From Rhizobium sullae (GTDB lineage: Bacteria; Pseudomonadota; Alphaproteobacteria; Rhizobiales; Rhizobiaceae): a DNA stretch of 64,000 nt. The translations under genes were made by a program, and so were the position numbers. Below are positions 7,015-30,185 of this stretch, in pieces (positions within the stretch are counted from its first letter, which is position 1; every line of letters starts with the position of its first letter). Location: positions 1 through 64,000 of the forward strand of contig NZ_CP104146.1 in the NCBI RefSeq assembly GCF_025200715.1. The letters run 5' to 3'. The notes below the pieces were generated by a model, which was not told where the DNA came from, ran no database searches, and saw only the letters and a list, made by a program, of their open reading frames with translations.

Positions 7015-10000
7015 TCACGAGGAGAGGGTGTTATCGGGCGTATCCGCGTTCGATACAACAATCCCGATTTCTGAACCAGGCCCGACGAAACGTGAGCTCC
7101 CCATCGCCAATGGCCTGAGCGATATTTGCAGATTGCTCAACTCCGCGACCACCTCTGGTCCGAAGGCGGAAAATAGGTTGATTAGTTCGTCTTGGCGAGG
7201 CTGGCCGAAGGCCAGTCGATATGTCGCCAGAGATTTCTTCAAATTCTCGAAGCGCTCAACCTCCCTGCTAAACGGGGGAATAAGAACAACGCGCTCAATT
7301 TTGTTGTCGCCGGGGAAGAGCCAGTAGGGGACGATATCGCCAGGGCGACCTTGCGCGATTTCATGCTTCCGAGCGTCCTCGAACATGCGCTCCCATGGTG
7401 CGACAAGCGCATCGGTGCAGATCGCAGAATCACCAAGCTTGGCAGCGATATTGCGGCGGACCGCGTGATTTTTGAAGCGGTGAACCCGGCCTTCGCGCTG
7501 TTCAATATCGACGGGATTACGGGGCAGATTCCAATGAACAACCCGGGAACAGTAAGGGTGGAAATCCAAACCCTCCTGGCCGATCGAGGTTGACGCCAGG
7601 ACAAACGGACGGAAAGGCGACTTGAACGCGGCTTGCACGAGCGTCGTACGGCGAATGCCTTTTTCATCCTCGGCTTTTGTCGCAAACCGCATCGCAAATC
7701 GCGCACGCACCTCGAAGGTCTTATCGTGCAAGCGCGAGCGTCCAGCTGTCCAGTGATCCAGCGTTATCTGAGCTGGTCTCAATGCGACGACTTCGACAAC
7801 CTTATTGGCGATGAGAGCCGCGCGTTTTTCGGCGTCCAATTCGGTAGCGTGTTCAGCGTCAATCACGAGTTGGAGGTATTCATCCAAGACAGCTGCCAAG
7901 TCGTGTCTCGCTGCATGCGCATTGATTTGGCGCCAGTAGTTCAGGGGCGATGTTTCTCCCAACAACGCCCTGCTCTCGGGTTGATTATACAAACTCCGAA
8001 ATCCGAGAGCGATCACCATCGCTGCCCCGATAAGGGCAGGGTCGTTCAGAGGTAGCTCCGGGCACAGGCGGCCCAACGCGCGAAGTGCGCAGGTCGCGGG
8101 GGATCCAAGGGCAAATTCTGCGAGCTTGCCGTAAGTATCTTTGACGTCTGAATCGTCAGGATGATCTTCGGCTTCGACTGCGTTTCCGATTACCTCAATG
8201 GCGCGCGCCATTGCCCCGTGCTCATCATGGCCTTCGTGCTCGATAGCACCGACCCTTCCCCAGTCCACGCCCTCTCCCAATTCTTCCTCAAGTGTGAGCG
8301 GCAGGAGCCGATCGGATCGCTTGGTCAGGGGTAATAGTCGGCTCGCGTCGATACGCTCGGTGAGCACTTCAACAGCCTGGAGGTGCAGGTCATCATATCT
8401 TGAAGCACGTCCAAACCGGCGTTCCAATGCTAGCGGGTCAACCCACGCCGCCAGAGTAGGGGAGGGGCACAGCATTGGCATCATCTCCTCGATGCCAATC
8501 GGGCGGCTGGTGCGGCTGACGAGATCGCTTGTCATGCCCATGCGACGGCTTGCTTCATGCGACAGAAGCGCAGCGATCGCGTCCGGCACCATCGACCAGT
8601 CTGAAAATATCAGCGACTTCGTGGCCGGGACCTGCTCTCCGTATGATGGCCGAGAGGGCGGAAGCCACAATGCGCGATCGAGTCCGTGTTCGAAGGCCGT
8701 GTCGGCTACCACGCGCATCCTCGCGTTTCTCAGCGGGATTTCTCCATAACTCTCAACCTGCTCCTTGCTAATGAGGAACGGAGCTGCAGCCTTGATTGCG
8801 CTGCGCAGTTCGCTGGAGGGCTGTAGTTTGAGCGTCTGCAGTTTCTGGCGAAGTTTGTATTCACGCATGAAATTGAGCAGATATGGCGATGACTTCCAAT
8901 ACTCGACGATACCCGGCGCGCCGACGATGGCCGCCACGTGGGCAATAGCCTTCGCTTCCTTGAGATCCTCCGTCTCGATCGTCAGCTCTGGCTTGCTTTC
9001 CTTGACCAGAGCGTTTCGGTCGTCGGTGGAATCCACGCGTTCGGTCCGGGCGATCACCTTGGCCAGAATGTGCTGGACACGGTCACGCCGGAAACGGGCG
9101 TGAACCCTCATCTCGGGCATAGCCTGCAGCGCACGGCGGAAACCTTTAAGCTCCCGTTCAAGTTCTCTAATCCGCACCTCACCATCTTCTTCCCCGAACA
9201 GGAAGCGCATGGTACGCAAGAAATCACCGTAGTGATCGCCCTCTTCCGGATCGTCACTATTCAATGTCAGCATGCGGTATGGTGTAGCTGATAGCAGCAA
9301 CAGGCGCGCTTTCGAGCCATCAGTGCCAGAGTAGGAAAAGAGAGCACGCGCGAGCTCCGCTGCGGCTGCCTTTTCGGGCGCCGACTGCTCATCGTGCTCG
9401 TGCAGCAGGTCGGCAAACCGCTGAAATTCGTCAAGGATGATCAAATCTGGACTTAAGGCATCAACGCAAATCCGAGCCAGGATACGGCGCAACTCCCCGA
9501 TCATGACAGCCGGCCGCTGATCGGGAGGATAAACTGGCTTCTTTTTGCTCCTAGCCAATTCCGAGGCGGCACGAATTCGCACAATGAATTCGTCTCCGAC
9601 AGCCACGTTGAAATTCTTGGCGATTTCTTCAGAGATTTTCTGGCCACGCATCCAGTCCGTCCAGCCTGGCCAGTTTTCGGCATCGACACCGCCGCGGAAA
9701 ACCCGCTGTATGCCCTTGTGTCGAATGCCGATCCTCTTCCTCAGCATCTCGTAAATGAGTGCGCGTTCCTTTGCGGTACCGAGCGATGACTTCAGATCGA
9801 GTGCGGTTCCTGGGGTGAGACTGATCAGATTTATGGGTCGGGAGGCAATTCCGCCGTCCTGCTCGATTTCCAGTGGCAGCAAGGTGAGGCGGGTGTTCAA
9901 CGGTTTTGCCGCCGAACCGATGACGTTGAGCGACTTGATGTTCTGCTCGGCGATCGCCTGGTTTGAGCAAATGTAGACGACGTCGATACGATCAACCTTG

Positions 10001-10191
10001 CCGGTCAGCTCTTCAATCGCCTTTGCAATGACACCTCGGGCCACCATGGTCTTGCCAAGACCAACCTCATCGGCCACGAGAAACTGCCTCGTCGTCCGCG
10101 GGTCGGTGAAAAGACGCCGAAACACATAGTCGACCGTGGCGCGCTGAAAGGGCTTGAGCAGCTTCAGATGCTCGTCTGCTTGATAGGTCAT
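7015..10191 (-). CDS. Large SNF2-like DEAD/DEAH helicase, last gene of the DUF6361-PLD-helicase trio
   Basis: A 1058-residue superfamily 2 helicase/translocase. Seen in order: FQRATVDYVFRRL, Walker A in VADEVGLGKTMVARG (about residues 40-55), Walker B-like ILDEFQRFADLL, motif III LLLSATPYRM, and motif VI IEQREGRVHRFKNH near the C terminus, followed by a WLFPGDNKIE and RLAFGQPRQDEL segment. Start chosen at ATG 10191, overlapping the upstream stop as ATGA, so it is translationally coupled to the PLD gene. It lacks any nuclease motif I recognise, so cleavage, if any, probably comes from its partners. It ends the long minus-strand run and converges on the 5821 gene. Confidence 0.85.
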   Translation of the reverse strand: MTYQADEHLKLLKPFQRATVDYVFRRLFTDPRTTRQFLVADEVGLGKTMVARGVIAKAIEELTGKVDRIDVVYICSNQAIAEQNIKSLNVIGSAAKPLNTRLTLLPLEIEQDGGIASRPINLISLTPGTALDLKSSLGTAKERALIYEMLRKRIGIRHKGIQRVFRGGVDAENWPGWTDWMRGQKISEEIAKNFNVAVGDEFIVRIRAASELARSKKKPVYPPDQRPAVMIGELRRILARICVDALSPDLIILDEFQRFADLLHEHDEQSAPEKAAAAELARALFSYSGTDGSKARLLLLSATPYRMLTLNSDDPEEGDHYGDFLRTMRFLFGEEDGEVRIRELERELKGFRRALQAMPEMRVHARFRRDRVQHILAKVIARTERVDSTDDRNALVKESKPELTIETEDLKEAKAIAHVAAIVGAPGIVEYWKSSPYLLNFMREYKLRQKLQTLKLQPSSELRSAIKAAAPFLISKEQVESYGEIPLRNARMRVVADTAFEHGLDRALWLPPSRPSYGEQVPATKSLIFSDWSMVPDAIAALLSHEASRRMGMTSDLVSRTSRPIGIEEMMPMLCPSPTLAAWVDPLALERRFGRASRYDDLHLQAVEVLTERIDASRLLPLTKRSDRLLPLTLEEELGEGVDWGRVGAIEHEGHDEHGAMARAIEVIGNAVEAEDHPDDSDVKDTYGKLAEFALGSPATCALRALGRLCPELPLNDPALIGAAMVIALGFRSLYNQPESRALLGETSPLNYWRQINAHAARHDLAAVLDEYLQLVIDAEHATELDAEKRAALIANKVVEVVALRPAQITLDHWTAGRSRLHDKTFEVRARFAMRFATKAEDEKGIRRTTLVQAAFKSPFRPFVLASTSIGQEGLDFHPYCSRVVHWNLPRNPVDIEQREGRVHRFKNHAVRRNIAAKLGDSAICTDALVAPWERMFEDARKHEIAQGRPGDIVPYWLFPGDNKIERVVLIPPFSREVERFENLKKSLATYRLAFGQPRQDELINLFSAFGPEVVAELSNLQISLRPLAMGSSRFVGPGSEIGIVVSNADTPDNTLSS

Positions 10192-29397: not shown

Positions 29398-30185
29398 GTC
29401 TTTTCCGCCCGGGTCGCGCGGCGCGCGGTTTGTGTTTTCTGCTGAGAGGACGGCTTCCGCGCTTGTTGTGTAGTGGCGGAGACGCTCTGACCATCGTCAT
29501 CGTCATCGTCATCGTCATCGTCATCGTCACGCGCAACGCCATCATCTTTTTCGATAAGGGGCTTGAGAAACATCCACATCCAGGTTGGGAGAGCTGTCAT
29601 ACCCGCGGTGAGATCTGCTTTCAGCTGCGGCCCCACGGCTGGATCCTCGAACAGCTTGGAGAGCTTTCGCCTAACCTGATCGCTCTCGCCTTCGCGGACC
29701 AAGAGGTCGCGCAGCCAATGAAGCGCCTGGACGACACGCATACCTGGCCGGCCGGCCCAGAACAGCTTGCTCGCCGCGGTCGGGCGGAAAGCTATCGTCA
29801 CGTTGCCTAGCTTAATCGCGCGACGGCGCGCATCAGTGTGAACTACGATCTTTGCTGGAACGGCGTCGGTCAGGCCGAGATCATTCGCGGCGGTCATGCC
29901 GTCGACAAGCATTCGGGTTTGATCGCGTCGCCCAACTGCGTCGATTACCGAGCGCGGATCAGGTGGATTGGGTTTCTGGGTAAGTTTGTTGAACCCGGGT
30001 TTATCATAGAGCCCGCGATCGATCCGCCTCAGAGTCCCAGCCTTTGTCAGCCGCTGCAATGCCTTGTCAACGGCATCGCGCGAGGCAAGATCGATGAAAT
30101 CGCTCGGCGTCCATACTTTTCTCAACGCCTCAGCGTTGATACGCGCGAGCATGCCGTGCTTGAGATCCGGTGAGTCGGCTGTCAT
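29394..30185 (-). CDS. abiEi: AbiEi-type antitoxin / autorepressor (DUF6088-like)
   Basis: A 263-residue antitoxin with an N-terminal winged-helix segment (WTPSDFIDLASRDAVDKALQRLTKAGTLRRIDRGLYDKPGF) and a C-terminal antitoxin domain (VDGMTAANDLGLTDAVPAKIVVHTDARRR). AbiEi proteins neutralise AbiEii and repress their own promoter by binding paired inverted repeats; two such repeats sit immediately upstream. ATG 30185 is used; ATG 30152 is an alternative that would free 33 bases for a leader. Near the C terminus a tract of 12 aspartates is encoded by six copies of a hexanucleotide, a site prone to slippage. Confidence 0.85.
   Translation of the reverse strand: MTADSPDLKHGMLARINAEALRKVWTPSDFIDLASRDAVDKALQRLTKAGTLRRIDRGLYDKPGFNKLTQKPNPPDPRSVIDAVGRRDQTRMLVDGMTAANDLGLTDAVPAKIVVHTDARRRAIKLGNVTIAFRPTAASKLFWAGRPGMRVVQALHWLRDLLVREGESDQVRRKLSKLFEDPAVGPQLKADLTAGMTALPTWMWMFLKPLIEKDDGVARDDDDDDDDDDDDGQSVSATTQQARKPSSQQKTQTARRATRAEKT
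29492..29527. repeat. (CATCGT)6 tandem repeat inside abiEi
   Basis: Six perfect copies of CATCGT. On the coding strand it reads alternating GAC/GAT and encodes poly-aspartate; six-base steps keep the frame, so copy number would change only the acidic tract length. Confidence 0.9.

Follow-up and report, generated by a model that had tools for sequence, protein, structure and literature searches.

The first 64,000 nucleotides of contig NZ_CP104146.1 of Rhizobium sullae (assembly GCF_025200715.1), the whole of which is called the window here, raise the question of whether thirteen consecutive genes constitute a single defence system. The original prediction had placed thirteen tightly spaced genes in one direction over 23 kb, and all were found to be open and on the minus strand, from 30185 down to 7015. 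It had further taken them for one undescribed system; a defence role is likely, but that part of the description does not appear to hold, since the genes, judged by content and homology, are at least four modules, several of them known or half-known. These are AbiE, a six-gene cassette, a plasmid AddBA-like pair and ZacABC (Azaca). The cassette comprises a sigma-like factor, a partner of 192 amino acids (aa) and an IrrE-UvrD fusion, together referred to below as the trio, followed by a triple ubiquitin-like (Ubl) protein, a DUF6791-E1 enzyme and a DUF6527 protein. The reading preferred here, with a probability of roughly 0.58, is that of a mobile composite plasmid defence island of separable modules, layered and with a damage-triggered sigma switch at its core.

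Recurrence was assessed by tblastn of the window genes on fetched loci and from annotated plasmid regions (PLSDB). The full order was present in four loci opened whole: the window, R. etli NXC12 (L053), A. fabrum pTiL-11 (L054), in which zacB is annotated in two pieces, and Mesorhizobium L-2-11 (L057), in which recombinase/reverse-transcriptase genes interrupt AbiE. Four more PLSDB records (NZ_CP020898, NZ_OZ000536, NZ_OZ012602 and AFSD01000008) fit by hit coordinates, a check that covered the partner, E1, AddB and ZacA, with AbiE and ZacBC outside it. In three loci of the genome collection (L001, L002 and L011) everything from the IrrE-UvrD C-terminus to zacC was present, and the fetched flank ended there. 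All ten named composite carriers are rhizobia or their relatives. The recurrence of this gene order across genera (Rhizobium, Agrobacterium and Mesorhizobium), for which a search of conserved neighbourhoods had been suggested, is more than chance, and the sub-blocks do not always occur separately, as the ordered composite recurs.

Tight junctions and recurrence of the whole order are also what one obligate 13-gene defence machine, as first proposed, would display. That reading was rejected as very improbable, since modules occur alone or recombined in many opened loci and Mesorhizobium NZP2077 carries everything except Azaca. Within fetched stretches of 14-25 kb, the six-gene cassette was found without AddBA or Azaca in Cereibacter, A. 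pusense, Klebsiella, Leptolyngbya, R. leguminosarum, Acinetobacter and three further genomes (G266, G458 and G513); ZacABC stood alone, with no AddBA, in Cronobacter; and AddBA-ZacABC had no cassette nearby in Bradyrhizobium 195, Niveispirillum/G175 and Sphingobium (L003). Other orders were AddBA-Zac-Ubl (G271), AbiE-AddBA-Ubl (G004) and, in Roseovarius, AddBA with a toxin-antitoxin pair and a Ubl cassette after it. The cassette, AddBA and ZacABC, predicted to be bound into one system, are thus each seen apart and in other orders. In Klebsiella (L059:14747-20650), the six-gene cassette adjoins Tn7-like transposition genes, a likely vehicle.

ZacA, ZacB and ZacC are adjacent, in order and encoded by overlapping genes, and match their PADLOC models over nearly the full length (388, 541 and 1021 bits); the block of DUF6361, PLD and helicase genes is the named Azaca system. 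The PLD gene had no Pfam match, and its label is upheld by the ZacB score; H149/K151 and H343/K345/N363 are conserved in it. The AddA-like protein of the window has the Walker A motif AGAGSGKT, with D1063, D1078 and K1080 conserved, and the AddB-like protein conserves D743, D758 and K760. The TIGR02784 model (AddA equivalog) scored 278 bits against a cut-off of 861, short of a canonical AddAB. AddB had no match in the PADLOC copy searched and no PDB sequence match, no CxxCxnC cluster was found in it, and the viral contigs held no relative of it.

Among 289 genomes sampled from the class, seven had DUF6361, eight had Multi_ubiq and eight had AddB. With the R. sullae genome removed (288 genomes), AddB co-occurred with DUF6361 in 5/6 (Fisher p=8e-9) and with Multi_ubiq in 3/7 (p=3e-4), and DUF6361 with Multi_ubiq in 2/7 (p=7e-3); these counts are per genome rather than of adjacency, and the statistics ignore kinship, though the matches span six to eight genera. 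An AddA-like gene lies directly upstream of ZacABC in nine of the 11 assessable loci of the genome collection (13 in total, L008 and L012 not being assessable), and there is none in L010 and L013. Five of these loci (L004-L007 and L009) have a diverged AddA-like kind, with 28-33% identity over the matched stretch; in L005, the one locus checked for an AddB-like partner, a PD-(D/E)XK protein precedes it. Azaca in Alphaproteobacteria is strongly tied to AddBA-like genes, an association that looks new, and the best sign that AddBA and Azaca may work together is that their adjacency survives AddA divergence to about 30% identity.

The same loci bear on a plainer account, in which AbiE, a Ubl system, AddBA and Azaca are independent systems that share no joint mechanism and came to be parked on plasmids as an ordinary defence island, spreading together through chance and selection for clustering. 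The six-gene cassette, AddBA and ZacABC are each found without the others and module order varies, as this account would have it, and AddBA adjoins many defence genes: its other neighbours include TerB-ATPase-helicase genes, BREX, type III restriction-modification (RM), AbiE, RES, an AAA/helicase pair and CBASS-like genes. Against it, the same order with overlapping genes is kept in Rhizobium, Agrobacterium and Mesorhizobium, and the AddA-ZacABC adjacency is kept at about 30% AddA-like identity; we regard it as possible but somewhat doubtful. On a Desulfosarcina plasmid (L068:8513-19072), genes for a nucleotidyltransferase, ThiF and Mov34 are followed directly by AddBA and a metallophosphoesterase; the first three are read as a CBASS-like set with AddBA as if in the effector place. 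On a short contig of G060 (L106:218-8105), a ZacC-like stretch is convergent with AddBA, an orientation unlike the others.

The core of the preferred reading, a composite of separable modules, is the trio. When 398 genomes were searched with IrrE-UvrD (E<=1e-90, R. sullae excluded from the count), all five genomes with a match also carried the sigma-like gene, the partner and a Ubl/E1 cassette. Ten plasmid loci, chosen for divergence from 90 matching records, were then opened, and a Ubl-type cassette was nearby in 10/10, divergently oriented to the trio in Robbsia and represented in P. koreensis by the Ubl gene alone, beyond IS66. Three cassette architectures stand beside the trio: Multi_ubiq / DUF6791-ThiF / DUF6527, as in the window; Multi_ubiq fused to Prok-E2 / JAB-ThiF / DUF6527 (Pfam-checked in L073, by annotation in L074 and L075, with L043 and L100-L102 placed here from a weak or no match to the window E1); and DUF7665 / JAB / ThiF-like (L078-L082, the E1 of L080 and L082 resting on annotation). 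With three cassette types beside IrrE-UvrD, the trio is the constant part, and it looks like a new conserved switch beside Ubl tagging genes, as far as its sequence relationships indicate. It was not described in the literature searched on the trio and on AddBA in defence; surveys of Bub operons were outside that search, so it may be known already. In L078-L082, the DUF7665 protein is encoded between the Ubl-like gene and JAB, and is E2-like by position only. In L061 and L062 (about 7.8-11.2 kb), IrrE-UvrD had no annotated coding sequence and the best open reading frames (ORFs) reached only 764 and 827 aa, which may mean a broken gene in both records; the other genes of the cassette look whole.

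Each member of the trio departs somewhat from what had been predicted. The sigma factor drew matches to TIGR02937 and Sigma70_r4_2, both weak, and scored 19.8 bits with the first of these, the sigma70-ECF (extracytoplasmic function) model, below the cut-off of 42.9; its homologues are annotated as sigma-70 family, sigma-24 or DNA-binding response regulator, and it may work like an ECF sigma factor despite the low score. The 192-aa protein, predicted to be a helix-turn-helix (HTH) protein, matched nothing in Pfam, PADLOC or NCBIfam, and evolves fast (mean column identity 41% in a 21-row alignment). The predicted fusion of IrrE, UvrD and nuclease is present as domains, the third of which looks like a dead nuclease. 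In 21/21 aligned rows of IrrE-UvrD, H84, E85 and H88 of the HEIGH motif (HExxH), Walker A and four cysteines near the C-terminus (908, 1111, 1114 and 1120) were invariant. An active nuclease was rejected as a candidate: no conserved D..DxK was found across the 21 rows, and in a weak profile alignment to AddB (25% probability) the DYK of AddB falls on RRI. The protein is accordingly read as a putative sensor, not a nuclease. The viral contigs, searched with IrrE-UvrD, gave eight distant helicases only.

A short element links the trio to the Ubl genes. The 81-bp gap before the Ubl gene contains TTACCGG-N16-CGATT, and a strict pattern, T[TA]CCG-N17-CGAT[TC], was sought up to 200 bp (<=200 bp) upstream of the Ubl gene in 27 cassettes (L076, whose Ubl gene lies beyond IS66, is outside this set). 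It was present in 19/27 overall, in most cases some 50 bp ahead of the start codon, and in 14/14 window-like cassettes, including those of Klebsiella, Leptolyngbya and Acinetobacter; the second cassette kind had it in 4/7 (6/7 with a loose pattern) and the divergent cassette in 0/1. Markov shuffles gave the strict pattern in 92 of 54,000, and it was found in none of six Ubl cassettes lacking the trio, one of which (L049) is a weak Multi_ubiq match with an approximate start. In the 7.6-Mb R. sullae genome, TTACCGGTC-N12-TCCGATT occurs exactly only before the Ubl gene. With up to three mismatches there were 56 matches (three of them one repeated sequence) versus 31 for a backward control. A wide sigma regulon was rejected or left aside, given the single exact genomic site.

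A second copy of the element, inside the sigma-like gene, is strict in 20/26 genes; in R. sullae it has two mismatches to TTACCGGTC-N12-TCCGATT, as do four other sites in the genome. This copy encodes [FY]R-x6-I, so protein constraint alone could yield part of it. Codon choice was compared with expectation in 21 of the 26 genes; dropped were L078, L080 and L081, where matching residues are missing, L102, which matched poorly, and L079, where the site does not fit. The Tyr/Phe codon ended in C in 21/21 (8.7 expected), NCG preceded Ile in 20/20 where the residue allows it (6.6 expected; L098, with GAG there, is outside this tally), and Ile was ATT in 18/21 (6.2 expected). The choice departs from local usage both ways: an AT-rich Acinetobacter gene, for instance, has TCG and TAC, and GC-rich genes have ATT. 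Since the window and its close relatives supply eight of the 21 rows, the z-scores overstate independence. From these patterns we infer that the element is a private promoter of the sigma-like factor, with binding predicted.

We tentatively propose, at slightly less than even odds, that the trio is a dedicated, undescribed DNA-damage switch for Ubl conjugation, in which a protease gated by its helicase would release a private sigma factor, found from cyanobacteria to proteobacteria with three cassette types, and that the rhizobial island is an extension of it with Azaca and with AddBA, a general plug-in DNA degrader that would pair with several immune systems. A competing view takes the trio for a plasmid stress or DNA-repair regulator, with Ubl tagging serving plasmid maintenance or damage tolerance rather than phage defence. 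Many carriers are large plasmids (the collection holds plasmids only), ImuA and DNA polymerase Y genes, an SOS-associated peptidase and LigD are found near cassettes, and PMC13373217 says that phage protection by Bub operons is not demonstrated. The composite joins the trio by position to Azaca and AbiE, both catalogued defence genes, which argues against this view, and we consider it unlikely.

The remaining genes of the cassette belong to the predicted families. The triple Ubl protein has PDB relatives 9cd2, 9d5b, 9d59 and 8u38. The E1 gave a fold match in a structure search, yet no PDB-chain sequence match at E<=0.01; among viral contigs, ten loci held E1 relatives, three of them nearly full-length. 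No separate E2 or JAB was found by Pfam in the window cassette. DUF6791, whose fold was barely covered by the structure search, was considered as an E2-like domain from its strand order and an invariant C75 (numbered from the 390-aa start), and was set aside because profile comparison linked it to neither the E2 nor the JAB of the sister loci. The DUF6527 model had a pLDDT (predicted local distance difference test) of 71 and the protein no PDB match at E<=0.001; its relatives have invariant Cys/His.

The DUF6527 family was confirmed, and the 3' end of the gene proved to be damaged by an insertion sequence (IS). The IS has terminal 14-bp inverted repeats (CTCGACTTTGTACA and TGTACAAAGTCGAG) with ATCAG on both flanks, and is not at this place in L053, L054, L057 or L058. 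The window frame, of 289 residues, runs into the IS, compared with about 147 aa in relatives, and its Cys/His core is intact. The gap between DUF6527 and AddB is about 1.7 kb in the window versus 169-218 bp in relatives. With the IS in this place, the downstream half (AddBA-ZacABC) may be uncoupled in this strain.

These observations of gene content, recurrence, association of IrrE-UvrD with Ubl genes, element and motif states can be joined into a proposed mechanism, the functional steps of which are all predictions. The IrrE-UvrD fusion would sense damaged or single-stranded DNA, and its IrrE metallopeptidase would cut the 192-aa partner, thereby freeing the sigma-like factor. This factor would turn on the Ubl operon by binding TTACCGG-N16-CGATT, and the copy of the element inside its own gene might amplify the switch. 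The ThiF domain, to judge by its family, would adenylate the triple Ubl protein, which would be attached to targets. AddBA and ZacABC, expressed by read-through or from a separate promoter, would unwind and degrade DNA, as their motifs suggest, and AbiE would be an addiction or last-resort (guard) module. As the modules are co-inherited they plausibly act as layers; each probably works without the others.

Several observations weigh against this interpretation. The composite carriers are often close relatives (76-95% identity), so co-inheritance may reflect recent spread. Sigma identity is weak (TIGR02937 E=5e-4; Sigma70_r4_2 E=0.014), and the partner has no known fold in addition to its want of a family match. 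Sequence comparison revealed no sigma-like gene in L077, L080 or L081, the annotations there being hypothetical, sigma factor-like and LuxR-type; in L082, an IS256 separates the gene from the others, and the partner is recognised by position only. The third cassette kind has the strict element in 1/5 only, and the element lies upstream of the sigma-like gene itself in only 3/26 loci (L061, L078 and L079). In the window, the strict pattern is absent before AddB, zacA and abiEi, so co-regulation of AddBA and Azaca by the switch remains putative. The DUF6527-AddB gap is of 169-218 bp even in relatives, and a WYL gene stands beside AddB in L065 and L066, that is, other regulators occur elsewhere.

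The features are listed in the table below. Their contents as first predicted (AbiE, IrrE-UvrD, multi-ubiquitin, E1, DUF6527, AddAB-like and DUF6361-helicase) were borne out by the Pfam and PADLOC scans.

Features of the thirteen-gene region and the inserted IS (positions in the window)
Feature	Position	Strand	Basis
AbiEi-type antitoxin/regulator (DUF6088)	29394..30185	-	PADLOC AbiEi 338 bits; Pfam DUF6088
AbiEii toxin (nucleotidyltransferase)	28339..29397	-	PADLOC AbiEii 345 bits; Pfam AbiEii
Sigma-like factor, first gene of the switch trio	27471..28325	-	TIGR02937 E=5e-4, weak
In-gene copy of the T[TA]CCG-N17-CGAT[TC] element, within the sigma-like gene	27660..27686	-	Strict match
192-aa fast-evolving partner; candidate inhibitor and protease substrate	26896..27474	-	No family match
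IrrE metallopeptidase - UvrD helicase - degenerate PD-(D/E)XK domain	23493..26894	-	Pfam (Peptidase_M78, UvrD, PDDEXK)
Promoter-like element TACCG-N17-CGATT, 51 bp before the Ubl gene	23463..23489	-	Pattern match
Triple ubiquitin-like protein (Multi_ubiq x3)	22656..23411	-	Pfam 204.8 bits, 3 stretches
DUF6791-ThiF E1-like enzyme	21509..22681	-	Pfam DUF6791 and ThiF
DUF6527 Cys/His-rich protein, up to the IS	21083..21512	-	Pfam; last residues replaced by IS-derived frame
IS element, outside the system	19568..21082	+	DDE_5 transposase 19620-21068 (+), Pfam
AddB-like PD-(D/E)XK protein	16716..19370	-	Pfam PDDEXK_1
AddA-like UvrD helicase-nuclease	13318..16716	-	TIGR02784 278 bits, below cut-off
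ZacA (DUF6361)	12040..13206	-	Pfam 712 bits; PADLOC ZacA 388 bits
ZacB, PLD-like, 652-aa ORF, HxK motifs at 149 and 343	10188..12050	-	PADLOC ZacB 541 bits
ZacC helicase	7015..10191	-	PADLOC ZacC 1021 bits

The junctions were recomputed in bp, overlaps being negative. From AbiE to the trio they are -4 (AbiEi/AbiEii), 13 (AbiEii to sigma), -4 (sigma/partner) and 1 (partner to IrrE-UvrD); in the Ubl part, 81 (IrrE-UvrD to multi-Ubl), -26 (Ubl/E1) and -4 (E1/DUF6527); and in the 3' part, -1 (AddB/AddA), -11 (DUF6361/PLD) and -4 (PLD/helicase). The gap from AddA to DUF6361 is 111 bp, or 51 bp if an earlier GTG start at 13266 is used. An AbiEi-AbiEii pair as in AbiE type IV toxin-antitoxin systems is present (338 and 345 bits, 4-bp overlap).

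The contig that begins with the window is 227 kb long and belongs to a 7.6-Mb genome of four contigs. The contig is most likely a plasmid, because RepC (2467-3771) and a MobA/MobL relaxase (59899-63282, +) with AAA_30/RecD-like helicase domains and a C-terminal BID domain (TraA-like) are present; the relaxase with its BID domain supports mobility of the plasmid. A type III RM pair, Mod/Res (30383-34719, -), with a 4-bp overlap, lies 197 bp upstream of abiEi; its genes were rejected as part of the unit, L053, L054 and L058 having other neighbours there. A 1708-aa protein with ResIII/SNF2-type helicase domains (40368-45494, +), preceded by a divergent 414-aa ORF without a Pfam match, is possibly another defence locus.

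What looks new is the switch module and an extended Azaca. According to PMC13373217, CapW or CapH+CapP occurs in 219 of 544 Bub operons and CapK+CapS in 59, and many are left without a named controller; if true, a switch that combines protease, helicase and sigma factor with a shared promoter element would be a new kind of control. Given the link with AddBA, defining Azaca by three genes would seem to leave out a partner that is common in Alphaproteobacteria, and the plasmid AddBA-like pair would be a reusable immune module.

Azaca is among the closest known systems, all three window proteins matching the Zac models over nearly their full length; PMC12278908 counts ZacC among defence helicases and PMC10952713 gives a PLD-like domain for Azaca. 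What sets the window apart is that AddBA-like genes precede Azaca, as they do in most of the alphaproteobacterial loci examined; in Cronobacter they are missing. The AddBA-like pair resembles AddAB/RecB-type enzymes in the Walker A motif, UvrD domains and intact nuclease motif of AddA and in the intact PD-(D/E)XK motif of AddB, and differs in scoring far below the AddA equivalog cut-off, in an AddB without a PDB match or CxxCxnC, and in sitting in defence loci.

The Ubl part belongs to an operon class described in 2006 by Iyer et al. (row 6e, PMC1779556), in which a tandem Ubl protein, an E1-like enzyme and a metal-binding protein are encoded, likewise in the window (Multi_ubiq x3, ThiF and DUF6527). 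Row 6e has JAB fused to the E1 and an E2/RWD-like domain, and also mentions variants with another domain, whereas the window E1 carries DUF6791; the terms UvrD, helicase and sigma factor are absent from the main text of that paper. From Bub/Bil operons (8u38, 9eav and related PDB entries) the window cassette differs in having no separate E2 or JAB by Pfam and in an E1 that matches by fold only. The main text of the paper on CapP-type control of Ubl operons does not use the word helicase. CapH+CapP resembles the proposed switch in being a DNA-damage-triggered regulator upstream of Ubl-type immune operons, with CapP a protease activated by single-stranded DNA. There, an HTH repressor stands beside an IrrE-type protease, whereas in the window the HEIGH-bearing IrrE forms one protein with UvrD and a degenerate nuclease, and its partners are the sigma-like factor and a 192-aa protein that gave no HTH family match.

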